A DNA stretch of 64,000 nucleotides from Lysinibacillus mangiferihumi (GTDB lineage: Bacteria > Bacillota > Bacilli > Bacillales_A > Planococcaceae), in contig NZ_PYWM01000018.1 in assembly GCF_003049665.1 (NCBI RefSeq), positions 1 through 64,000 on the forward strand, given 5' to 3'. A program made the translations under genes and the position numbers. This document shows, piece by piece, positions 47,534 to 59,832 of this stretch (position 1 is its first letter; each line of letters starts with the position of its first letter). The notes under the pieces were generated by a model, which did no database searches, was not told the DNA's origin, and was given only the letters and a program-made list of their open reading frames with translations.

Positions 47534-48351
47534 CGGAGTATAGTAGCCATAGAGAACAAGTAGCACAAGTTCATCGTGTGTCAGATAGACAAAATATCGT
47601 CGAAAATGCTTTATTACACGCATTCGAACCTTTTATTTTTATAAAAGAAGTACCATTTATTAATTTTGGTAATATGACTGCTGGTGAATTAGCGAATGCA
47701 TTTAGCGCTTATCCTATCGTGGTCAAATCCATTTTAGCGACGGTAAATGTTGCAGGAAGGGCGATTAAGCGAGATTTAGATATATCTATTGATACATATA
47801 GTGATAAGTTACCGAAAGAAAAAGCGGCTATTTTAGCAGGTTATATTAAACCGATGTTACCCAATGAACTTGCAATTCCTGCAATATGTGAGCTGGATAG
47901 ATGGTTTTATGTAGATAAAGAAATAAGAAAATTTAAAGGTAGTTGGGAAAAAGCGATTCTTACTATTTTAAAAAAGAATGCAAGAACGGATGATTTTAAA
48001 AAAGTTAAGTTTGAATGTGATGGGGAAAACTTTCAATTAGATGCAGTACATCCATCCAATGCGCCCTATAAGGTTGGTATCGATGTCAGGAGAATTGAGG
48101 CAAAACAAGATATCCATAAAAGAGCGGATGAAATCATCAATAAGGCGAGAAAATTTAAAAAAATTTGTCCGAATGCTAGCTTTTACGCAATAATTTATTA
48201 CCCATTTACGAGTGAACATATTAATTTACAAACCAGATTAAAAGATGAACATATTAATGGTGTTTTTTTTGCTACCGAATCATTTTCAAGCATTGAACAG
48301 CAGACAAAGTATATTTTAAGTTCAGAAGGTTTACTTAAGGATGAGATTTAA
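47530..48351 (+). CDS. Putative type II restriction endonuclease
   Basis: A 273-residue protein beginning at TTG in a 4-base overlap with the methyltransferase stop. The C-terminal half shows a PD-(D/E)xK-like core: FQLDAVHPSNAPYKVGIDVR with Asp171 and Asp185, followed by a helix (ADEIINKARKFKKICPNASF) and a strand (YAIIYYPFTSE). The usual Lys of DxK is Arg187 here, so the catalytic assignment is tentative. Coupling to a methyltransferase strongly supports a restriction role. Site unknown. Confidence 0.75.
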   Translation: MTEYSSHREQVAQVHRVSDRQNIVENALLHAFEPFIFIKEVPFINFGNMTAGELANAFSAYPIVVKSILATVNVAGRAIKRDLDISIDTYSDKLPKEKAAILAGYIKPMLPNELAIPAICELDRWFYVDKEIRKFKGSWEKAILTILKKNARTDDFKKVKFECDGENFQLDAVHPSNAPYKVGIDVRRIEAKQDIHKRADEIINKARKFKKICPNASFYAIIYYPFTSEHINLQTRLKDEHINGVFFATESFSSIEQQTKYILSSEGLLKDEI

Positions 48352-48412
48352 TAAATAATGAATAAATAATAGGTTATGAAGCAAAGTTAGAAATAATAAG
48401 GAGGAAACAAAT

Positions 48413-48979
48413 ATGTCAAAGAAAAATAAAATGTTATCACTCGAACAATGTGAGGAATTACTTCAAACTTTGCAAGAGCGATTTGAGAAAAATATGAATC
48501 GCCATCAAGGTCTTGATTGGGCGACAGTACAAGCAAAGCTCGAAACGAAAGCCGAAAAATTATGGTCACTCAATGAAATGGAAAGTACTGGCGGTGAGCC
48601 TGATGTCGTAGGGCATGACGAAAATACGGGGGAGTTTATTTTTTATGATTGTGCGAAGGAAAGCCCGAAAGGTCGCAGAAGTGTTTGTTACGATCGTGAA
48701 GCATTGGAGTCAAGGAAGAAGCACCAACCAGAAAATACTGCGATAGATATGGCAACGGCTATGGGCATTGAACTTTTAACAGAAGAACAATACCGAGCAT
48801 TGCAGGAACTAGGTACTTTCGATTTAAAAACATCGAGCTGGGTACAAACACCTGCAAATATTAGAAAGCTGGGCGGGGCCATCTTCTGTGATCGTCGCTA
48901 CGATACGGTCTTTATGTACCACAATGGAGCGGATTCCTACTATGCTGCAAGAGGCTTCCGTGGTGCGCTTAAAGTATAA
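48413..48979 (+). CDS. DUF4256 family protein
   Basis: A 188-residue soluble protein with LLQTLQERFEKNMNRHQGLD, TGGEPDVVGHDENTGEFIFY, DCAKESPKGRRSVCYDREAL and GGAIFCDRRYDTVFMYHNGA, the blocks of DUF4256. It is widespread as a single gene in bacteria; its function has not been established to my knowledge. AAGGAGGAAAC is a strong ribosome binding site. Confidence 0.85.
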   Translation: MSKKNKMLSLEQCEELLQTLQERFEKNMNRHQGLDWATVQAKLETKAEKLWSLNEMESTGGEPDVVGHDENTGEFIFYDCAKESPKGRRSVCYDREALESRKKHQPENTAIDMATAMGIELLTEEQYRALQELGTFDLKTSSWVQTPANIRKLGGAIFCDRRYDTVFMYHNGADSYYAARGFRGALKV

Positions 48980-48997
48980 TATAAAAAAACTTCGGAG

Positions 48998-49035
48998 AGC
49001 TTTCTAAAGCGTTTATGCTGTTTAGGAAGCTTTTA
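48998..49035 (+). terminator. Terminator after the DUF4256 gene
   Basis: AGCTTTCTAAA pairs with TTTAGGAAGCT (one mismatch), then TTTT. Confidence 0.7.
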
Positions 49036-49144
49036 GTATTGAATGCTAAAGCAAAACATTCATATACTAGCGACTTCTAGCGTTTGAAGGCTAATCACCA
49101 TAAGGAGAGTCCAAACGATGAAGAGCTAGTTTTGTTAATAATGA

Positions 49145-49185
49145 AAACAGTCATCCATGCAAATTTGCAGGGTGACTGTTTCTTT
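49145..49185 (+). terminator. Terminator-like hairpin
   Basis: AAACAGTCA and TGACTGTTT pair with an inner CAAATTTG palindrome, followed by TTTCTTTC. No gene is seen between 49036 and 49144, so it may end a short RNA. Confidence 0.6.
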
Positions 49186-49324
49186 CATATGAAAGCGGGA
49201 GCTAGTGAAAAAATGTAAAGACCGTATTTCAACCAGCTCGTCTATTTTGAAACACAATGAAAAGGGTCATTAGGCTGGGCATAACCCTTTTTAAAGAGAG
49301 GTGCAATGAATCTGTATGTTAGAA

Positions 49325-49495
49325 TTAGCAGTCTTCTTTGCTATTTATGAAAGTAGCGCCAACAATAATTAAAAGAATGAATAATACAACGATTAGAGCG
49401 AATGTTGAACCATAGCCATTGTTATTACCGTATTCATAGTTACCACAATAATTGTTGTTCCAATTGCCCCCTACATTTCCGCCGAAGTATCCCAT
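49325..49495 (-). CDS. YjcZ family sporulation protein (56 aa)
   Basis: Gly/Asn/Tyr-rich N-terminus (MGYFGGNVGGNWNNNYCGNY) followed by the diagnostic hydrophobic motif FALIVVLFILLIIVGATFI. YjcZ-type proteins are small spore-associated membrane proteins of Bacillaceae. GGAGGGAT precedes the ATG at 49495. Its presence is one of the better clues that the host forms spores. Confidence 0.88.
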   Translation of the reverse strand: MGYFGGNVGGNWNNNYCGNYEYGNNNGYGSTFALIVVLFILLIIVGATFINSKEDC

Positions 49496-49583
49496 GGAAA
49501 ATCCCTCCTTTCTTCAATATATAGTATGTAAACTACTAAGAAGTGGAGGGGTGTTTATCCATTGGGGTAAGAAAAATAATGAA

Positions 49584-49674
49584 ATCGCCACAAAAATCGT
49601 TGGAATCGCCACTAGAACAAAAGAAATCGCCACTAAAGCGGAAGAATCGCCACAAAAACCTCCAAAATCGCCAC
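49584..49674 (+). repeat. Five 21-bp tandem units carrying ATCGCCAC
   Basis: ATCGCCAC recurs at 49584, 49605, 49626, 49646 and 49667, a spacing of 21, 21, 20 and 21 bp, with AAA or GAA on each side. Read as codons the unit is seven residues (EIATK..), but the 20-bp step breaks any single frame. It lies between the YjcZ gene and the 3' end of the ABC ATPase gene. Confidence 0.75.
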
Positions 49675-49705
49675 AAAAACCATTTGTTCTTCGGTTCGTT
49701 ATTGG

Positions 49706-51442
49706 TTACATCGCAACCCAGTGATCTTTAGAAACTTCCACAAGTTGTGTATTGTCTAAGTTAAAACGGTTCACCATCAACTCTTCTTCGGTCATGACTT
49801 GGCGTTTCTTTTGTTTTTCAATTGCTGGGTCTGGAATCGGAATAGACTGCAATAACATTTTGGTATAAGGATGTTGTGGATTGGCATACAGCTCTTCGCT
49901 CTCTGCTAATTCTACAATTTTTCCTCCATACATAACGGCAACGCGATCGCTAATATGTTTGACCATCGACAAATCATGGGCGATAAATAAATAGGTTAAT
50001 CCTAAATGTTGTTGTAAGTCTTTCAATAAATCCACAACTTGCTTTTGAATGGAAACATCTAGAGCAGACAGTGGTTCATCACATACTATAAAATTTGGCT
50101 CGACAGCTAAAGCACGTGCAATGCCAATACGTTGACGTTGCCCGCCACTAAATTCATGAGGGTAGCGTAAAGCATGTTCTTTTTTTAAGCCTACTAGTTC
50201 GAGTAATTCTTCAACTCGGGCACGACGTTGTTCTGTTGATGTCGTTAATTTATGTACATCAAGCGCTTCCCCAATAATATCAAGGACCTTTTTACGAGGG
50301 TTTAGTGATGAATAGGGGTCTTGGAAAATAATTTGCATATGGCGTCGCATACTTTTTAACTCATTTTTAGATAAGCGTGTAACAGGTACCCCTTTATACA
50401 ATACTTCACCATCTGTTGGTTCATGGAGCTGTAAAATCGTACGTCCTGTTGTTGACTTGCCTGATCCGGATTCACCAACGAGCCCCAATGTCTCGCCAGG
50501 GAAAATACGGAATGATAAGTCATCGACTGCCTTTAAAAGTTCACCTTTCTTTAAATCGAAATGCTTTGATAAATTGCGAACTTCAATTAGCGGTACAGTT
50601 AAATCGATATCTTGTGCGATATGGGGTGGCTGTTTCGGTTCTTTTTTTTCATGAAGCTTTGGCAATGCGTTTAACAGACGCTTTGTATAGGGATGCTGTG
50701 GGTTAGCGAATATTTCTTCCGTAGTGCCTTCCTCAACGATTTCTCCCTCTTTCATGACAATGACACGATCACACATACCGGCAACTACACCTAAATCATG
50801 CGTAATTAAGATAATAGATGTCCCTAGACGTTCTTGCATTTGTTTCATAATGCTTAAAATTTGTGCTTGGATTGTGACATCCAGTGCTGTTGTTGGTTCG
50901 TCAGCAATTAACAGGGCAGGGTTACAGGCAAGAGCCATGGTAATCATGACACGTTGACGCATACCACCACTAAATTCATGCGGGTACTGATGATAACGCT
51001 CCTCGCTATTTTTTATACCAACAGATTTTAATAATTCAATCGTTTTTTCGTAGGCTTGCTTTTTAGTCATTTTTTGATGCTTCATTAAACCTTCAGCGAT
51101 TTGTTCACCAACACGAATGGTTGGGTTAGTGGAAGTCATTGGGTCTTGGAAAATCATACTAATATCTTTTCCCCGAATTGCTTCCATTTGCTTTTCCGAT
51201 TGTGTCACTAGATTGTCCCCTTGGAAAAGAATTGTTCCAGACTTTAAAAAAGAAGGGGGGGAAGGGAGAAGGCGCATGATGGATCGAGCCGTTACACTTT
51301 TACCGCTACCAGATTCGCCTACAATGCCCACTGTTTCTCCTTTATTGACATAAAAGTTTACCCCTTTTACTGCTTCAAATTCACTTTCACCTGTAATAAA
51401 AGAAACGCGTAAATCTTGTATTTCAAGAATTTTTTCACTCAT
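49706..51442 (-). CDS. Peptide-type ABC transporter ATPase, two fused NBDs
   Basis: A 578-residue protein made of two DppD/DppF-like ATPases. NBD1 has Walker [12 protein letters not shown] (39-49), Q-loop [11 protein letters not shown], signature FSGGMRQRV and Walker [16 protein letters not shown]2 has [33 protein letters not shown] and [12 protein letters not shown]. Each is followed by a HPYTK oligopeptide motif. It powers uptake by the divergent permease-binding protein operon across the 168-base gap. Single-chain double ATPases exist in the family (GsiA type). Confidence 0.93.
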
Positions 51443-51479
51443 CGAATGCTCATCCTTTTATAAATTTTAAATATTCTTG

Positions 51480-51508
51480 TTGACGAAATGTAGTCGTTCA
51501 TACATACT
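51480..51508 (+). promoter_or_regulatory. Possible promoter of the permease operon
   Basis: TTGACG (51480) and CATACT (51503) at 17 bp, about 100 bases before the first permease gene. The -10 box is weak. Confidence 0.35.
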
Positions 51509-51610
51509 ATACTATACAGGTAGGGATTGTACAATATAACCTGTCATGTAAATTATTTCGTTTGATTTTCATACCTTACTACTATAGTAAACGCAGAAAG
51601 GAGGAAATAC

Positions 51611-53041
51611 ATGATTAATTTTCAGAATATTAAAAAGTTTGATGGGAATTATTATTTCAAGCGGGTTTTTAGCGAGATAACGAGGAAACATAGTTATTCA
51701 ATTGCACTTTTTTTACTAGGATTCCCAGTTCATGTTGTTACATATTTTTTATATTTGTTAAAAAAGGATAAAAATTTATATGTGCCGTTGTTTGCACAAA
51801 TGAAACAACAATTTATTTCAGAGGGAAAAGTACATGCTTGGGCAGCGGAATATAGGCTACAGGAACAAACAAAGGCTGCATTTTTTAATAAATCACTGAA
51901 TGAACGTCAACTGGATTTGGTTGTTAATCAATTAACAGAACAAAAGCTACATAGAGAAATAGAAAAAATATTAACAAAGGATGGTTTAGCAAAGCCTTCC
52001 TATAAGAGTTATTTTAGCGAACTGCTTGGAAATCCACTGTTTTTAGTTTTGTCATTTATTCCAGGCGTTTTTATGTATATTTTCCTTATCTTATGTAGTA
52101 ACGCATTTAGTCGGTTTATCGTTGAACGTTTAGTTCAAAGTGCCTTTGTCATCGTTGGTGTTGCCACATTAGTATTTACGATTTTATATTTATCACCATT
52201 TGACCCTGCTCGCAATTTGCTAGGTATTGAGGCAACACCTGAACAAGTCGCAAATTTTAATAAAATTTATGGACTCGATCAACCTTACTTAGTGCAACTA
52301 TGGCATTCATTATCTGGGCTGTTTACGTTTGATTTAGGCAATTCGTTTGAAGGCAAGGAAAATATTACGCAAAGTATTATGAATAAATTTCCTGTGACAT
52401 TGGAAATTGCCCTATTGTCATTACTAATGGCGGTGGCGATTGCCATTCCTGTTGGGATTATCTCAGCGGTAAGACCAAATTCTTTTGCAGATTATGCGTT
52501 TATGTTTATCGCACTTATTGGTTTATCCATACCGAGCTTCTGGCAAGGTTTGATTTTTATTTTAACGTTTTCATTAAAATTACAATGGTTCCCAGCTACG
52601 TATAATCCGCATAATTGGTTATCCATTGTTATGCCAGTTGTTGTATTAGGTACTTCTATTACAGCATCGATTGCTCGCATGACAAGGTCGAGCATGCTTG
52701 AAGTGATTCATGAGGATTATATTATTACAGCCAAAGCGAAAGGATTGAGTGAGCGCAAGGTTATCACAAAACATGCAATTCGCAATGCAATGATTCCTAT
52801 TGTTACGGTAATCGGTCTGTTATTTGGTGGTATGCTTGGCGGTGCTTCTGTTACAGAGAAAGTATTTAACATCAGTGGTATCGGTAGCTATATCGTTGAT
52901 AAACAATTTATTCCGGATATACCGGCACTCCTTGGAGGGGTTGTCTATATTGCGATTACGATTTCGATAGTCAACATGGTGATTGATGTGTTATATGCAT
53001 TCTTTGATCCACGTATTCGTTCAAAAATGAAGAAATCTTAG
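51611..53041 (+). CDS. DppB-like permease with N-terminal extension
   Basis: A 476-residue protein. Residues about 175-476 are a normal DppB/OppB permease: FIVERLVQSAFVIVGVATLV, LSPFDPARNLLG, the EAA loop (EDYIITAKAKGLSERKVITK) and AFFDPRIRSK at the end. The first 170 residues are unusual: two hydrophobic segments (ALFLLGFPVHVVTYFLYLL and FLVLSFIPGVFMYIFLILC) separated by a charged helical region (AAEYRLQEQTKAAFFNKSLN). AAAGGAGG supports the start, so the extension is real. It pairs with the similarly extended next gene. Confidence 0.88.
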   Translation: MINFQNIKKFDGNYYFKRVFSEITRKHSYSIALFLLGFPVHVVTYFLYLLKKDKNLYVPLFAQMKQQFISEGKVHAWAAEYRLQEQTKAAFFNKSLNERQLDLVVNQLTEQKLHREIEKILTKDGLAKPSYKSYFSELLGNPLFLVLSFIPGVFMYIFLILCSNAFSRFIVERLVQSAFVIVGVATLVFTILYLSPFDPARNLLGIEATPEQVANFNKIYGLDQPYLVQLWHSLSGLFTFDLGNSFEGKENITQSIMNKFPVTLEIALLSLLMAVAIAIPVGIISAVRPNSFADYAFMFIALIGLSIPSFWQGLIFILTFSLKLQWFPATYNPHNWLSIVMPVVVLGTSITASIARMTRSSMLEVIHEDYIITAKAKGLSERKVITKHAIRNAMIPIVTVIGLLFGGMLGGASVTEKVFNISGIGSYIVDKQFIPDIPALLGGVVYIAITISIVNMVIDVLYAFFDPRIRSKMKKS

Positions 53042-53057
53042 GAGGAGAGGGTATAGT

Positions 53058-54554
53058 GTGAAATTCATCTCGAATGTAAAGCTGCTAATGAAAATAACGC
53101 AAGAATATGTCAATGCACAGTTTACCATTGTCTTTTCTGCTATTTTTTCAGTGCTGTTTTTACTAAATAGTTTTAATTTTGCTGACGGTGTATGGCGTCC
53201 CTATGTCCTTGGGCTATTTATCATTTACGTTGCTACCACTTTATATGTATGGGTCGCAACGTGGCAAATAAAAAAGGATTTAGCAAAACACCGAGAAATT
53301 CAAAAGCGAACACGACTGCTTGGTTACCCATTAATGCTAACAGTCGTTGTGGGCAATGTTTTTGCAGCAGGTTTCGGTTTTATGCTCGCAACAAAAAATA
53401 AAACGGCAGAATATACTTTTGCTATCTATGCCTTCATTACACAAATTTTTATTATCGGTATTTCGGCACTCAATTTATTTAAGCCGTATGTAGTCGATAC
53501 ATTTTTATTCGCAATGGGTGCGTTTTTAGCACTCGCTGTCTTTTATGCCGTGATGGCTATACTTGTAGCGCGTTACGTTACGGCTAGTAATGCGCCAAAA
53601 TGGATGATACCCCTTGGTGTGGTGTTACTTTTACCTACACTAACTGGCAATTTATTTTCATTACTGCTTGGCTTGACATTAATTAAAAAAGCGCGCAATA
53701 CAGATCCATCGGCAGTAGAAAAATGGCAAAAAATATGGAATAAAATCTTGCGCAATATGATGGCTGTATTCGGCATGTTCTTTATTATTTTTATGTTCTC
53801 GCTGTCAGTCGTGAGTTCATGGACATTTGATTACGATTTTGCCGTGCAAAATAATTATAGTGCCTTGCTACAGACGCCATCTTTAGACTATCCGCTCGGG
53901 ACTGATAATTTTGGTCGGGATTTATTTTCTAGAATCGTATTTGGTGCTCAAATTTCATTAATCGTTGGTTTCTTTTCTACGATTATACCAGCTGTAATAG
54001 GAGGAGCACTCGGTGCGTTTTCAGGCTATTACGGAAAAAATACAGATAACATTATCATGCGTTTGCTAGATATTTTATATGCTATCCCAGGCATTTTACT
54101 AGCTATTGCAATTATTGCAGCATTTGGTGCAAATACAGTGAACTTAATTATTGCATTAAGTGTAGGGGCTATTCCAACCTATGCAAGAACGATGCGCGCC
54201 AATGTGATGCAAATTGCCAATTTTGAATTTGTTGAATCAGCAAAGGCGCTAGGCGTATCAGATGCCGCCATTATTTTTAAACATATCGTACCGAACGCTC
54301 TTGCTCCGATGATAGTAAAAGCGACTTTAACAATTGGCGGAGCGGTCATTTCGACTAGTAGTTTAAGCTTCCTTGGACTCGGTATAGAGCCGCATATACC
54401 AGAATGGGGCAATATTTTAAAAGTTGGTAGTACGTATTTAGAAACCAATGCTTATGTGGCTATTTTCCCAGGGTTATGCATTATGTTACTCGTCTTATCG
54501 TTTAATTTTTTCGGCGATGGATTACGCGATGCCCTTGATCCTAAAACAAATTAA
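53058..54554 (+). CDS. DppC-like permease with N-terminal extension
   Basis: A 498-residue protein. The last 290 residues are a DppC/OppC permease: LDYPLGTDNFGRDLFSRIVF, LLDILYAIPGILLAIAIIAA, EAA loop EFVESAKALGVSDAAIIFKH and FGDGLRDALDP at the end. Before it lie about 210 residues with five or six extra membrane spans (YVLGLFIIYVATTLYVWVAT, LMLTVVVGNVFAAGFGFMLA, VVLLLPTLTGNLFSLLLGLT). GTG start after AGGAGGAG. The added spans have no equivalent in standard permeases. Confidence 0.88.
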   Translation: MKFISNVKLLMKITQEYVNAQFTIVFSAIFSVLFLLNSFNFADGVWRPYVLGLFIIYVATTLYVWVATWQIKKDLAKHREIQKRTRLLGYPLMLTVVVGNVFAAGFGFMLATKNKTAEYTFAIYAFITQIFIIGISALNLFKPYVVDTFLFAMGAFLALAVFYAVMAILVARYVTASNAPKWMIPLGVVLLLPTLTGNLFSLLLGLTLIKKARNTDPSAVEKWQKIWNKILRNMMAVFGMFFIIFMFSLSVVSSWTFDYDFAVQNNYSALLQTPSLDYPLGTDNFGRDLFSRIVFGAQISLIVGFFSTIIPAVIGGALGAFSGYYGKNTDNIIMRLLDILYAIPGILLAIAIIAAFGANTVNLIIALSVGAIPTYARTMRANVMQIANFEFVESAKALGVSDAAIIFKHIVPNALAPMIVKATLTIGGAVISTSSLSFLGLGIEPHIPEWGNILKVGSTYLETNAYVAIFPGLCIMLLVLSFNFFGDGLRDALDPKTN

Positions 54555-54578
54555 CTTATTATATTGGAGGAAAAGACA

Positions 54579-56390
54579 ATGAACAAAAAATTATTTACAT
54601 TGGCTACATCAGCAACTGTTGCTGCGGTTGCGTTAGCTGGTTGTGTAGAAACAAAATCAAATGTAGAAAATAAAGATGATAAATCAGAAACAGCTAGTAC
54701 TAAACCAGTTCTTGAAGTGCTAGGGATGGCTTCACAAGAACAAGATATGAATATTGTACGAGACCAATTAGTGAAAAATGGTTTTGAAGTAAAGTTAAAT
54801 ATTCAACCAGACTACGGTTCTTACTCGGCACAAAAAGATGCTGGTAACTATGATGTAGCGGTATCTAGCTGGACAACTGTAACCGGCAATCCAGACTATG
54901 CAGTGCGTGGGTTATTCAGAACAAATGGAAGTTCTAGTGTACATGCCGATGCTACTGTCGATAAATTAATAGATGAAGCCAGTACGTTAACGGGGGATGC
55001 TGCAAAAGAGAAGTATAAAGAGCTAGAGCAAGCATTAGTGTTTGATAATGCGTATATTGCGCCATTATATATTTCTCAAAAGTTCCAAGGTATTTATGCA
55101 AAAGAAGTAAACCCAGACACTGTACGTTTATCAAAATCACGTGCACAAGCATGGGAAACAATTTCATTTAATGATACCGCTAAAAATGCAACAGATACAT
55201 TAGTTTTACATCAAGGGATTGCTTCCTTAACTTCTCTTGACCCGGTAAAAGGAAATGACGGTTCCATTAATACATTAAATACAAATATGTATGTACGATT
55301 AGTGAATTTATCTGATACGGATGAGGTCGTTTCTAATGGTTCACTATCCTATAATCACGCTATTTCCGAAAATAACAAAGAATACTATTTCGTCTTACGT
55401 GATGATATCAATTTTGCTAAGGTGGAAAATGGCAAAGCGGTAGATACTGGCGATTTAGTATCGGCTGAAGACGTTGTATTCTCTTTACAACGTGCAAAAG
55501 ATCAAAATTCAGTACCAGATCACCGCACATACTCTATTCATGAGAATATTGATTCTGTAGAAATTGTTTCAGATATAACTGCACTTGAAGCAGTGAAAAC
55601 GGCTGACGGTCAATCAGTTTTAGATGAATTATCGGCTAAACTTCCTGCAGCGATTGCACAAGTTGTAACGGACGAAGCGAGTGTAGACAATGCAGCAGGT
55701 AAATATCAAGTTGTGAAAATTACAACACCGAATCCTTTCCCACAAGTGCTAAACTATTTAGCTCACCAATCGGGCGGAATTGTGTCTGAAGCGGCAGTTA
55801 AAGCAGTCAATACATTTGACGTAGCAAGTTATGACCCAAATGTAAATGTGGCATACGGTGACCAAGCTACTGTAACGGAAGGGGCAACATATGCCAATCA
55901 TTTAGCGGCATCTGGACCTTACATTTTAGTTCAAAAAAATGATTATGAAGCAACGTTTGTCAAAAATCCAGCTTACCAAGTAGGGACTGAAAACGAGCCG
56001 AAAATTAATCATATTAACGTTCGATTCATTGAAGATAATGACTCAGCACTTTCTGCTCTACGTAATGGTGAAATTGACGTATTACAATCTGTGCCTGAAA
56101 CGAAAATTGATGTTGTAAAAGGTGATGCAAACTTAGCGTTAAAAACAGCGGATAGTAATGCCGTATCATATTTACTAATCAATCCAAAAGGCCGTGAAGT
56201 TTCGAAATCTACAGACTTGCGTAAAGCCATCCTTTACTCTATCAACCAAGATGAATTTATTAGTTTCTATCAAGGTAATAAAAAACCAGCCGTTTCAACA
56301 GTTTCCCCACTTGTTGACACAGGCCTAAAATTAACAGCAGATAGCACAAAGGTCAAAGAATTTCTAAGTGCTTATAAAGCTAGTAAATAA
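54579..56390 (+). CDS. Circularly permuted peptide-binding lipoprotein (SBP_bac_5)
   Basis: A 603-residue lipoprotein; lipobox ALAGC with Cys22. Residues about 43-196 look like the usual C-terminal segment of DppA/OppA proteins (LEVLGMASQEQDMNIVRDQL, NYDVAVSSWTTVTGNPDYAV, ELEQALVFDNAYIAPLYIS). Residues about 207-603 look like the usual N-terminal and central segments (VLHQGIASLTSLDPVKGNDG, YFVLRDDINFA, LVSAEDVVFSLQRAKD, then SGPYILVQKN and AILYSINQDEFI). The chain ends where a normal protein would continue into the C-terminal segment. Cognate ligand probably a peptide. TTGGAGGAAAAG precedes ATG 54579. Confidence 0.9.
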   Translation: MNKKLFTLATSATVAAVALAGCVETKSNVENKDDKSETASTKPVLEVLGMASQEQDMNIVRDQLVKNGFEVKLNIQPDYGSYSAQKDAGNYDVAVSSWTTVTGNPDYAVRGLFRTNGSSSVHADATVDKLIDEASTLTGDAAKEKYKELEQALVFDNAYIAPLYISQKFQGIYAKEVNPDTVRLSKSRAQAWETISFNDTAKNATDTLVLHQGIASLTSLDPVKGNDGSINTLNTNMYVRLVNLSDTDEVVSNGSLSYNHAISENNKEYYFVLRDDINFAKVENGKAVDTGDLVSAEDVVFSLQRAKDQNSVPDHRTYSIHENIDSVEIVSDITALEAVKTADGQSVLDELSAKLPAAIAQVVTDEASVDNAAGKYQVVKITTPNPFPQVLNYLAHQSGGIVSEAAVKAVNTFDVASYDPNVNVAYGDQATVTEGATYANHLAASGPYILVQKNDYEATFVKNPAYQVGTENEPKINHINVRFIEDNDSALSALRNGEIDVLQSVPETKIDVVKGDANLALKTADSNAVSYLLINPKGREVSKSTDLRKAILYSINQDEFISFYQGNKKPAVSTVSPLVDTGLKLTADSTKVKEFLSAYKASK

Positions 56391-56409
56391 AGTATCTGCC
56401 ACTTTATGC

Positions 56410-56453
56410 AAAGCACTTCAAAGCCATTTTTTATGGTTGAAGTGCTTTTTTTA
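56410..56453 (+). terminator. Terminator of the transporter operon
   Basis: A perfect 12-bp stem AAAGCACTTCAA / TTGAAGTGCTTT followed by T's. Confidence 0.88.
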
Positions 56454-56543
56454 GTACAAAGATACATTATTTGTTTAAAATTGGAACTTTTCTGAGTTTT
56501 AATCGTATATGGAGAAAAAAGATAAAGAAGGGGAGTGAGGCAT

Positions 56544-56882
56544 ATGCGAAAGAAAGATGTACTTATTATGCTAGTCACTTTGATTGTAGAAGGAATCATT
56601 ACTTACTTGATTGCATCGTTTTTCTCTGTTCGATTTATCGAAATTATGTTTTTTGTTGGCTTTGCCATTGCATGTGGAATTTTTTACCTTTCTAGTAGTG
56701 GTGGACCAATGGCTAGATACAATGAAGTTCAAGTTACTGCGCAAACAGGAATCATTCACAAAAGCGAGGGATTTACTACCAAGAAAGGTCCGATATTTTT
56801 GGCTTCTGTATTATTTTGTTTAATTGGACTGGTGTTTTTTCTCCTACTAATTGCAGAGATTATTCCACCTAGTGCAAAGTAA
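56544..56882 (+). CDS. Small membrane protein (112 aa)
   Basis: Two adjoining spans at the start (VLIMLVTLIVEGIITYLIAS and FIEIMFFVGFAIACGIFYLS), a soluble loop (GGPMARYNEVQVTAQTGIIH), and a third span (IFLASVLFCLIGLVFFLLLI). It resembles the DUF3899-type small membrane proteins in layout, but I am not sure of the family. Start ATG 56544 after GGGGAGTGAGG. Confidence 0.6.
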   Translation: MRKKDVLIMLVTLIVEGIITYLIASFFSVRFIEIMFFVGFAIACGIFYLSSSGGPMARYNEVQVTAQTGIIHKSEGFTTKKGPIFLASVLFCLIGLVFFLLLIAEIIPPSAK

Positions 56883-56938
56883 TATAGAAAAGTTATGCAG
56901 CTTTTATTCCGACATTTAAAAATACTTTACTTCCATTA

Positions 56939-56979
56939 AAAAGCCCTTCTACCATTATCCAACGGTTAGAAGGGCTTTT
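56939..56979 (+). terminator. Strong intrinsic terminator
   Basis: AAAAGCCCTTCTA pairs with TAGAAGGGCTTTT; T-rich on both strands. Confidence 0.88.
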
Positions 56980-57096
56980 GCTGTTGACATGATAAACCAA
57001 AATAGAGGACATTCTAGTGTCAGTTGTAAATCAACGTAACGAATAATTCGCATAGTAATTGGAAAGTACTTTAAGAAAAAGTCGGAGTTGATTGTT

Positions 57097-57297
57097 TTGA
57101 TATTTAATCAAGATAAAGAAATTTACTGCTATAGCTGTCGTAAAAAAACGGTCTTTACATGTAAAGATCGACACAATAAAAGCGGAGTAGAAAGTCATTG
57201 CAGTGAATGTAGCGGCATTTGGTTTGAATGGCAAAATCGAGCCGTTGAGCGAGAAATGGAAAAGTGGGTTGAATATAACCACAAAATCGTCAATTAA
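57097..57297 (+). CDS. Small zinc-ribbon protein (66 aa)
   Basis: Two CxxC pairs (CYSC near residue 10 and CSEC near 41) form a zinc ribbon, with FTCKDRHNKSG between them and an acidic helix after (NRAVEREMEKWVEYN). TTG at 57097, 8 bases after CGGAG, is preferred over TTG 57088, which is too close to it. No family recognised. Confidence 0.5.
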   Translation: MIFNQDKEIYCYSCRKKTVFTCKDRHNKSGVESHCSECSGIWFEWQNRAVEREMEKWVEYNHKIVN

Positions 57298-57506
57298 TAC
57301 TAGTATTTCCATAAAAAAATGGTATTCTTCCTTGTAAAATATTAGATGAAAAGAAAAACCTTGCTTAAAATATTACGATATTTTACTTAAATATGATATA
57401 AATTATCCATTTCAATCACCTGTTTAGTACTTAAGGTTTGCTAATATGGCTATGTCTGATTTAGTTGTATATAATAAAATAAAGTTAACGCGTGAAGGTG
57501 ATTGTA

Positions 57507-58402
57507 TTGGACGACATAGTCATAACAGGGTATGGCATTAAAGCTCCTGGAATTCTAGATAAACATAGTTTTTTAAATGTATAAAAAAGGTATTTGTACA
57601 CAGTGTAATTTAAATAATGCTCATCAGCCTCAAGCAAACATCGTTGCGGGCGTGATTGATCAGAACTTTCAGGAGATTAATGGCATAAATTATCGCGACA
57701 TCCACGTTCTGTAAGAATGGCAATTGCCGCGACATTGGATGCAATTGAAATGGCAAATTTAAAAGATGTTCAACCGCATCGAATAGGTGTCATTATGGGT
57801 ACATCCGCTGGAGCGATTTTGGAAATCGAAAAATATGCTGCGGATGGTTTTGATTTAAGAAAATTCCCTATTCATGGGGTTGCGCTTGTTGATACCCACA
57901 CGCTTTCGAGCTCTGTTGCAGAAGCTATCGGATCGTGTGGTTCTGCATTTACCGTCATAACTGGTTGCAGTGCTAGTTTAGATGCCATTTTAATAGGGAA
58001 ACAATTATTAGAGTCTGGAAGTGTTGATGCTTGCATTGTAGGAGGAACAGAGGCTCCTTTAGGCCAATGGACAATTAATGGCTTTAAAAAATTGAGGTCT
58101 CTTTCAACAGAGAGCTCAATCGAAAAAAGCGGGTGTTCCCTTTTCAACACTGCATCAAGGCTTTGTTTTATCCGAGGGAGCTGGCGTTATGATTTTAGAA
58201 CGTAGACAATCTGCAAATGCACAAGGGCAGAGCATTTATGGGAAGGTTGAGCGTGTTATTTCGAGAAATGAAGGGCAGAAACTATTAAATTCTGATAGTA
58301 CTGGTAGACATATGTTAGACGTTTTTCAAGAAACGGTTGGGGATACACTACCAAGTTATATAAACAGTCAGGCACTAGGCATAGCATTGAATGATCAAAT
58401 CG
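57507..58402 (+). pseudogene. Beta-ketoacyl-ACP synthase, frameshifted and truncated
   Basis: Pieces in three frames add up to a KAS-type protein: DDIVITGYGIKAPGI at the start, a shifted part KKGICTQC...ANIVAGVIDQNFQ, then HPRSVRMAIAATLDAIEMAN, GVIMGTSAGAI, a Cys active site in VITGCSASLDAI, and after another shift SEGAGVMILERRQSANAQG. At least three frameshifts (near 57580, 57690 and 58130) separate the parts. The C-terminal His-containing half is missing and replaced by the PAS-GGDEF remnant. It would have condensed acyl chains in fatty-acid or polyketide synthesis. Confidence 0.85.
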
Positions 58403-59832
58403 ATAAAAGAAGAAGCTATTACATCCGCTTCGGGGGAAGTTGTATGGGTACAAACGGTCAAAGTTCCGATTCATATCAATGATAGTGCTACATTACTGGC
58501 AGTTTCAACTGATATTACGGAACGCAAGCGCTATGAAGATGAAATCAAGTTTCAAGCTAATCATGATGCATTAACAGGGTTACCAAATAGAAGGATGTTC
58601 AATGAAGATTTAATAGTGCAGCAAAACTTAAAGGAAGTCAAAATGCCATATTGTTCTTTGATCTAGATCGTTTTAAATATATCAATGATTCACTTGGGCA
58701 TGATGTGGGTGATCTCTTATTGATTGAAGTATCAAGGCGTATTGAAATATTGCTAAAAGAAAAACATAGCAAGGCAACGATCTATCGACTCGGTGGAGAT
58801 GAATTTACCATTTTACTGCCTGATTATGATGCTACTGAAAGTGAGAGATTTGCTAAAGATTTGTTATATCGATTTAATACAGCGTTTTGGATTGATGGAA
58901 GTGAGTATTTCATTACACCAAGTATTGGTATTAGCACTTTCCCTAATGATGGGTATGATGCGAATACATTGATTAAGCATGCAGATACAGCCATGTACTA
59001 CGTAAAAGAACGAGGGAAAAATAACTATCAATTATTTACTTCAGAAATGCAACAACACTTCTATCGAAAGATGATGCTTGAAAAGCAATTACGAACAGCA
59101 TTAGATAATGAGGAGTTTGAGCTTTATTACCAGCCTATTATTGATGTGAAAACGAATGAAATTATTGCTATGGAATCACTCATTAGATGGAATAATGAGG
59201 TGCTTGGTCAAGTTACCCCAGATGAATTTATTTCGGTTATGGAAGAAACAGGGATGATTATTCCGATAGGTAAATGGATATTGACTACAGCCATAGCACA
59301 AACTGCCCGTTGGCACAATGAAACAAATAAGCCTTTAAAAATAAGTATTAATGTATCGGTGAAGCAGCTGCTTGAATCAACATTTGTAGAAAATGTTAAG
59401 CAAGCAATAGAGAATGCTTCATTCGATGCATCCTATGTTGTGTTGGAGATTACGGAGAGTATTGCGATGTACGCTGAGTCAATGATTGAAAAATTATATG
59501 CATTGAAAAAACAAGGAATCAGTCTATCAATGGATGATTTCGGCACAGGCTATTCATCGCTTAGTTATTTAAATAAATATCCATTGGATTCCTTAAAAAT
59601 TGATAAATCATTTGTTATTGGGATGAACCAAGATGATGAAAACAAAGCGCTTGTCAAAACCATTATAGCGATAGCCAAGCAGCTCGATTTAAAAGTAATA
59701 GCGGAAGGAGTAGAAGGGGCGGAAGAATACGAATTCTTAGCCGAAATTGGCTGTGACTATGCGCAAGGTTATTTGTATAGCCGACCACTGCCTGTCGCAG
59801 CATTTAAAGCGCAATGGCTTAGCATTAACTGA
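58403..59832 (+). pseudogene. PAS-GGDEF-EAL protein, N-terminally lost and frameshifted
   Basis: It begins inside a PAS domain end (SASGEVVWVQTVKVPIHIND ... DITERKRYEDEIKFQANHDA) and runs into GGDEF (LTGLPNRRMFNEDL). A shift near 58615 interrupts it before AILFFDLDRFKYINDSLGHD. The rest, 58651-59832, is open: RLGGDEFTILLP is the cyclase site, and an EAL domain follows (YYQPIIDVKTNEIIAMESLI, with ESL instead of EAL; DDFGTGYSSLSYLNKYPLD; AEGVE). It would have made or broken c-di-GMP. A late TTG start might still give GGDEF-EAL without the first cyclase helix. Confidence 0.8.

Follow-up and report, generated by a model that had tools for sequence, protein, structure and literature searches.

A stretch of 64,000 nt from Lysinibacillus mangiferihumi (contig NZ_PYWM01000018.1, positions 1 to 64,000 of the forward strand; hereafter the window) carries a gene for a 603-residue lipoprotein that is very probably a naturally circularly permuted solute-binding protein of family 5 (cluster C), acting as the binding subunit of an ATP-binding cassette (ABC) importer of the GisABCD kind. 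Behind a lipobox placed at the new N-terminus, the chain begins with the C-terminal third of an ordinary family-5 protein and continues with its N-terminal two thirds, the cut falling at mature residue ~342/343 of DppA and the old ends being joined via residues ~175-206. This permuted order is kept in Bacilli, where its companions are extended permeases and an ATPase with two domains. The original prediction had proposed such a permutation of an SBP_bac_5 protein, and sequence matches, a rotation test, a structure model and conservation all agree on it.

Segment order of the binding protein

The reading frame opens with the ATG at 54579, behind a GGAGG site and 24 bases past the stop of the upstream permease (54554), and its own stop reaches 56390, as had been predicted. 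In a Pfam search at E up to 1, SBP_bac_5 (PF00496) is the sole family to match (144.1 bits, for a cut-off of 32.4), and it does so in two stretches, the best of which places residues 261-580 on positions 11-252 of the 368-position profile. The same split appears in a scan of the genome, where family-5 matches occupy 14 rows, two of them belonging to this gene: the upstream part (54699-54932) corresponds to profile positions 289-366 (26 bits) and the downstream part (55359-56321) to positions 11-253 (117.5 bits). As these stretches stand in the reverse of their normal order, the two segments are swapped. A profile built from 17 permuted relatives gives a consistent picture against DppA (1dpp), with profile positions 233-338, 469-596, and 63-166 falling on 31-135, 207-338, and 374-481, respectively; the transposed piece, searched alone, matches 5u4o at 380-489 and MppA at 386-486. 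The permutation also accounts for GisD relatives being matched only piecewise by family profiles.

For the rotation test, the mature chain was rotated in 3-residue steps and scored with a profile made from 33 ordinary proteins of Bacilli, using the window protein, those four of six named relatives that are in the non-redundant set (L035, L095, L096, and L097) and a single held-out ordinary protein as control. Unrotated, the window protein scores 140.6 bits and covers only model positions 15-325; rotated at mature residue ~171, it reaches 176.5 bits in one domain that spans positions 16-486 of 513. Rotation at the corresponding place adds 42 to 55 bits in each of the four relatives, and the control scores best in its unrotated form (712.4 bits). 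A collinear order, which would speak against permutation, was thus looked for and not found, and the idea that an ordinary collinear protein has been misread is ruled out by the preference of the test for the permuted reading.

Alignment of rotated permuted proteins with the 33 ordinary ones further shows that the cut is gapless, with nothing lost or doubled: the stretch ending in STKVKEFLSAYKASK aligns with the helix ending in DPEKAKxLLxEAGY of ordinary proteins, and PVLEVLGM with the strand that follows it. The new termini therefore abut, and the C-terminus lies where the usual chain would enter the displaced segment, as anticipated; the join lies at about 55187, not far from the ~55170 first proposed. 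Compared with most of the 33 ordinary sequences, the permuted proteins additionally show three insertions, of 9, 32, and 24 alignment columns. Overall, each segment is present once, the segments are swapped, the old ends are joined and the chain is whole after rotation, as is expected of a circularly permuted protein, and the profile match and fold are those of SBP_bac_5 while the usual segment order is not.

An AlphaFold2 model of the window protein has a family-5 fold with a predicted local distance difference test (pLDDT) score of 90.5, and its residues 1-39 are predicted to form a disordered spacer. The closest structural match is E. coli GsiB (1uqw), which covers only model residues 204-603, and the order-dependent alignment is accordingly informative for this segment but hardly so for residues 44-197.

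Conservation and origin of the permuted order

Proteins with the same order occur in 26 of 61 near-relative genomes, the window genome included, and in a panel of 398 genomes of the class Bacilli (E 1e-60) 35 genomes from 11 of 145 genera gave a match, 34 with a full-length protein and one, G385, with a fragment. In a phylum panel (E 1e-40), the four positive genomes among 398 all belong to this same class. A scan of named genomes returned 80 stretches matching the pattern, 8 of which were confirmed, and all 8 display the permuted order; these loci are from Solibacillus (3), Metasolibacillus, Lysinibacillus (2, one of them a metagenome bin), Ureibacillus, and Gracilibacillus. Several carriers are single-contig assemblies. 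The permuted order is thus kept across several families of Bacilli, and an assembly error near 55170, for which no sign was found, is ruled out by its recurrence in near relatives, named loci and the class panel. Altogether, we consider both a misread collinear protein and a fault of assembly or sequencing around 55170 to be practically inconceivable.

In total, 84 permuted open frames reduce to 62 distinct proteins; one of these, L001, is the window protein itself, and alignments of 63 rows hold 62 distinct proteins. When residues 202-603 were searched in a panel of 41 genomes, permuted proteins (3 genomes) scored at least 270 bits and the next-best ordinary match 52 bits, with no intermediate between permuted and ordinary proteins seen in this panel. 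In a tree of 61 sequences, retained from 96 by an identity filter of 93%, the 28 permuted proteins form one group, set apart by a branch 1.68 substitutions per site long, and the rearrangement looks like a single old event.

This event could have been either the duplication, with trimming, of a single gene or the fusion of halves from two related genes. In the latter case, two family-5 proteins would have contributed one part each, the C-terminal and the N-terminal one, respectively, giving the same topology from different parents. Trees of the two halves (33 ordinary sequences and 12 permuted ones, drawn from 14 named relatives) do place different ordinary proteins nearest to each, and with the same 12 permuted sequences the identities of the halves to the 33 ordinary proteins correlate weakly (Spearman 0.27, p 0.13). 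However, each half lies on a long branch with poor support, which leaves the difference between the trees within noise, and a gapless cut with nothing doubled is what the permutation of a single gene predicts. Fusion is thus an unlikely origin, and permutation within one gene is preferred.

The fragment in G385 (L098 9186-9833) is a C-terminal piece of ~215 residues of the permuted protein, with no recognised permease beside it.

Locus organization and extended permeases

The binding-protein gene is preceded by two permease genes and by a divergent ATPase gene (Table 1). Both permeases, the ATPase and the permuted protein were found together in 19 of 20 fetched neighbourhoods, the remaining one being L098 with its binding-protein fragment only, and the linkage to permeases and ATPase also holds in the 7 named neighbourhoods listed. 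A variant arrangement is seen in G421 (L097 6892-13792), whose operon has, in place of the divergent two-domain ATPase, a pair of separate ATPase genes located between those of permease C and the permuted protein.

Table 1. Features of the permuted binding-protein locus in the window.
Feature	Position	Strand	Basis
Divergent ATPase, two ABC domains, GsiA/YejF-type	49706..51442	-	Domain profiles
Promoter-like TTGACG-17-CATACT, then operator-like element (51513-51537)	51480..51537	+	Conserved in intergenic alignment
OppB-type permease (permease B), 476 aa, core from ~167	51611..53041	+	PF00528, PF19300; Opp2B-type profile
N-terminal extension (~166 aa) of OppB-type permease	51611..52108	+	Two hydrophobic segments flanking a loop of ~90 residues (~50-142)
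OppC-type permease (permease C), 498 aa, core ~222-497	53058..54554	+	PF00528, PF12911; GsiD/Opp4C-type profiles
N-terminal extension (~217 aa) of OppC-type permease	53058..53708	+	Six hydrophobic segments, crude hydropathy
Permuted SBP_bac_5 lipoprotein gene, GisD-like, 603 aa	54579..56390	+	Pfam, PDB profile match, rotation test
Signal peptide ending LAGC; lipobox Cys22 codon 54642-54644	54579..54644	+	Sequence
Residues 44-203, segment ending ordinary family-5 proteins (DppA ~343 to C-terminus)	54708..55187	+	Profile order, alignment
Residues 204-603, segment beginning ordinary family-5 proteins (DppA 1 to ~342)	55188..56387	+	Profile order, alignment
Terminator-like hairpin, then T run	56410..56448	+	Fold -19.6 kcal/mol, z -4.69, 0/200 shuffles

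Both permeases carry N-terminal extensions, neither of which has a Pfam match over a cut-off. The extension of permease C, which by crude hydropathy has three extra hydrophobic segments in L095 instead of the six of the window protein, is present in 34 of the 398 class genomes; these are exactly the 34 with a full-length permuted protein and none other in the panel, the query being made of 7 fairly close sequences that very divergent extensions could escape. In each of the 34 genomes, the coordinates place the extension and the permuted protein on the same contig. Genomes of the f9 group, discussed below, match only the second half of the extension, and weakly (E 1e-7 to 1e-12).

The original prediction also held that permutation would move the lipid anchor and thereby alter the orientation of the protein to its permease. 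The first part stands, as the lipobox Cys22, present in all 62 distinct permuted proteins, now lies at the start of a normally internal strand. Regarding the second, the predicted disorder of residues 1-39 implies a flexible tether, and the ordinary docking surfaces may therefore be kept despite the new tether. The presence of the PF19300 region in permease B (residues 168-266, past the first core helix) likewise suggests ordinary docking; in DppB, the scoop motif also lies past the first core helix (PMC12136057, available part). Conversely, the extra N-terminal hydrophobic segments on both permeases are a hint of a changed interface.

As for expression signals, the operator-like element, located just past the -10 box, is conserved among related loci, L102 and L104 included, with L095 of f9 as an exception. 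A pattern search of the genome gave one exact match, at the locus itself, and 22 matches at 3 mismatches versus 10 for a backward control. We presume, as a guess, that it could be a site of the CymR type (cysteine regulator), literature passages having yielded no consensus. Promoter-like sites in the locus region are not above those of shuffled sequence, and in a comparison of the promoter with CodY sites 998 of 1000 shuffles score as high as the promoter itself. An Rfam scan of 48000-58000 returned no match at gathering score, and the hairpin downstream of the gene is absent from the list of a simple terminator scan. Further downstream, 57717-59832 holds sequences that, going by their translations, resemble a ketoacyl synthase and a PAS/GGDEF/EAL region; they are spread over several short frames, where the relative G019 (L110 11993-15589) has two long ones of 397 and 796 aa.

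Relation to GisABCD and possible ligand

In S. aureus, divergent gisA is followed by gisB, gisC, gisD, and ggt, and the Gis system is required for the use of oxidized glutathione (GSSG) and of micromolar reduced glutathione (GSH), glutathione use being lost in gis mutants (PMC10355420, available part). In the same source, a survey assigns the complete system solely to the S. aureus complex; the more distant relatives found here are without adjacent ggt. In three genomes from the family f9, which is presumably Staphylococcus or a neighbour, the gene next to the permuted protein encodes ~670 residues (L095, L096, and L114). Two of these neighbours were tested and are gamma-glutamyltransferases (PF01019, 526.8 and 517.8 bits), with a PF01019 match at the third locus as well. 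Because the f9 loci show the published gisA/gisBCD-ggt arrangement, the window protein is called GisD-like. It has the same permuted order as the proteins of L095 and L096, to which it is 39-42% identical along almost the whole chain, and appears to be of the same family as the staphylococcal glutathione-binding protein, to which it is likened via gene order and these f9 relatives rather than the S. aureus GisD sequence itself.

Several points weigh against reading the protein as a permuted, GisABCD-like binding subunit. On the structural side, model residues 44-197 were largely outside the order-dependent comparison, the alignment used for the model had been built with permutation in mind and with some fragment ends misplaced, and an earlier AlphaFold2 run, whose input was limited to 17 permuted sequences, gave a poor model (pLDDT 60.8) that was kept out of searches. 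As to kinship, identity to the f9 proteins is just 39-42%, in a set of 39 of the 62 permuted proteins (identity filter 96%), compared together with the window protein and with 33 ordinary proteins cut into 66 fragments. Finally, gamma-glutamyltransferase is absent from the window genome and from the 4 further genomes of the genus that were tested, and motifs that probably line the binding cleft are not the same in the 3 f9 proteins as in the remaining 59, e.g., GNPDYAVR versus GDPNYSMS, or SVPDHRTYS versus SVPNNITYN. Given the last two points, glutathione is no more than a candidate substrate of the window protein; among the 34 carriers of the permuted protein, 28 have a gamma-glutamyltransferase somewhere in the genome.

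The ligand site itself provides another clue. In DppA, D436 binds the amino end of dipeptides (PMC12136057, available part). The aligned residue, Val101 in the window protein, is valine in all 62 permuted proteins and aspartate in 17 of 33 ordinary ones, and a gamma-glutamyl compound, or another ligand lacking a free alpha-amino group at this position, would fit. Together with the large distance in score from ordinary family-5 proteins in the 41-genome panel, this valine might also suggest that the permuted protein no longer takes part in transport and is now a surface sensor or receptor; its linkage to permeases and ATPase in nearly all neighbourhoods and the phenotype of S. aureus gis mutants (PMC10355420, available part) nonetheless make this highly improbable, and a role as importer subunit is retained.

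Proposed mode of action

The folded protein would open and close like an ordinary Venus flytrap and capture a small peptide-like ligand, which in staphylococcal relatives would be glutathione or its disulfide, before passing it to the two permeases in a process driven by the ATPase. Its new N-terminus would tether it at a normally internal strand, which would change the tether and perhaps also the fit with the permease extensions, the latter having probably evolved along with the re-tethered protein. More tentatively, and with appreciable doubt, these Bacilli systems could form a subfamily of peptide/glutathione importers in which the re-tethered permuted protein is held or guided by gained, membrane-embedded permease extensions, including the outward loop on permease B, with which it would have co-evolved.

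Comparison with known systems

GsiB/YliB (glutathione binding, 1uqw) and DppA, both of E. coli, have the ordinary chain order, and the permuted proteins further differ from DppA by the valine at the D436 position. In the openly available literature on permutation in binding proteins or staphylococcal lipoproteins, the only natural permuted importer protein found was TpMglB-2 (Tp0684) of Treponema pallidum, a 'Type Ic' protein with a type I fold. Like the window protein, TpMglB-2 is a naturally permuted lipoprotein that serves as binding protein of an ABC importer; it differs by its type I sugar-binding fold, by another cut and by not being of family 5 (PMC4990184, available part). The window protein is itself outside the type I sugar-binding family, given that SBP_bac_5 is its only Pfam match. 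Here, it is thus a large family-5 protein that is permuted, always together with an extended permease in the panel searched, while the earlier known case was of type I. This raises a testable question, i.e., whether the place of the anchor on a binding protein matters for its work with the permease; the authors of the TpMglB-2 study also ask if the lipid anchor drove permutation (PMC4990184, available part).

With respect to GisABCD-Ggt, permutation is not mentioned in the main text, as available, of two papers on this system (PMC10355420, PMC12510641). The window locus differs from it by having no ggt, whether adjacent or elsewhere in the genome, and by its motifs. It nonetheless shares the divergent ATPase with two ABC domains, the two permeases and the lipoprotein binding protein, and the f9 relatives stand in the published order, ggt included. 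In addition, the nine transmembrane regions predicted for GisB and GisC (PMC10355420, available part) fit the extended permeases described here, and the permuted order of the binding protein bears on the modelling of the staphylococcal glutathione importer.
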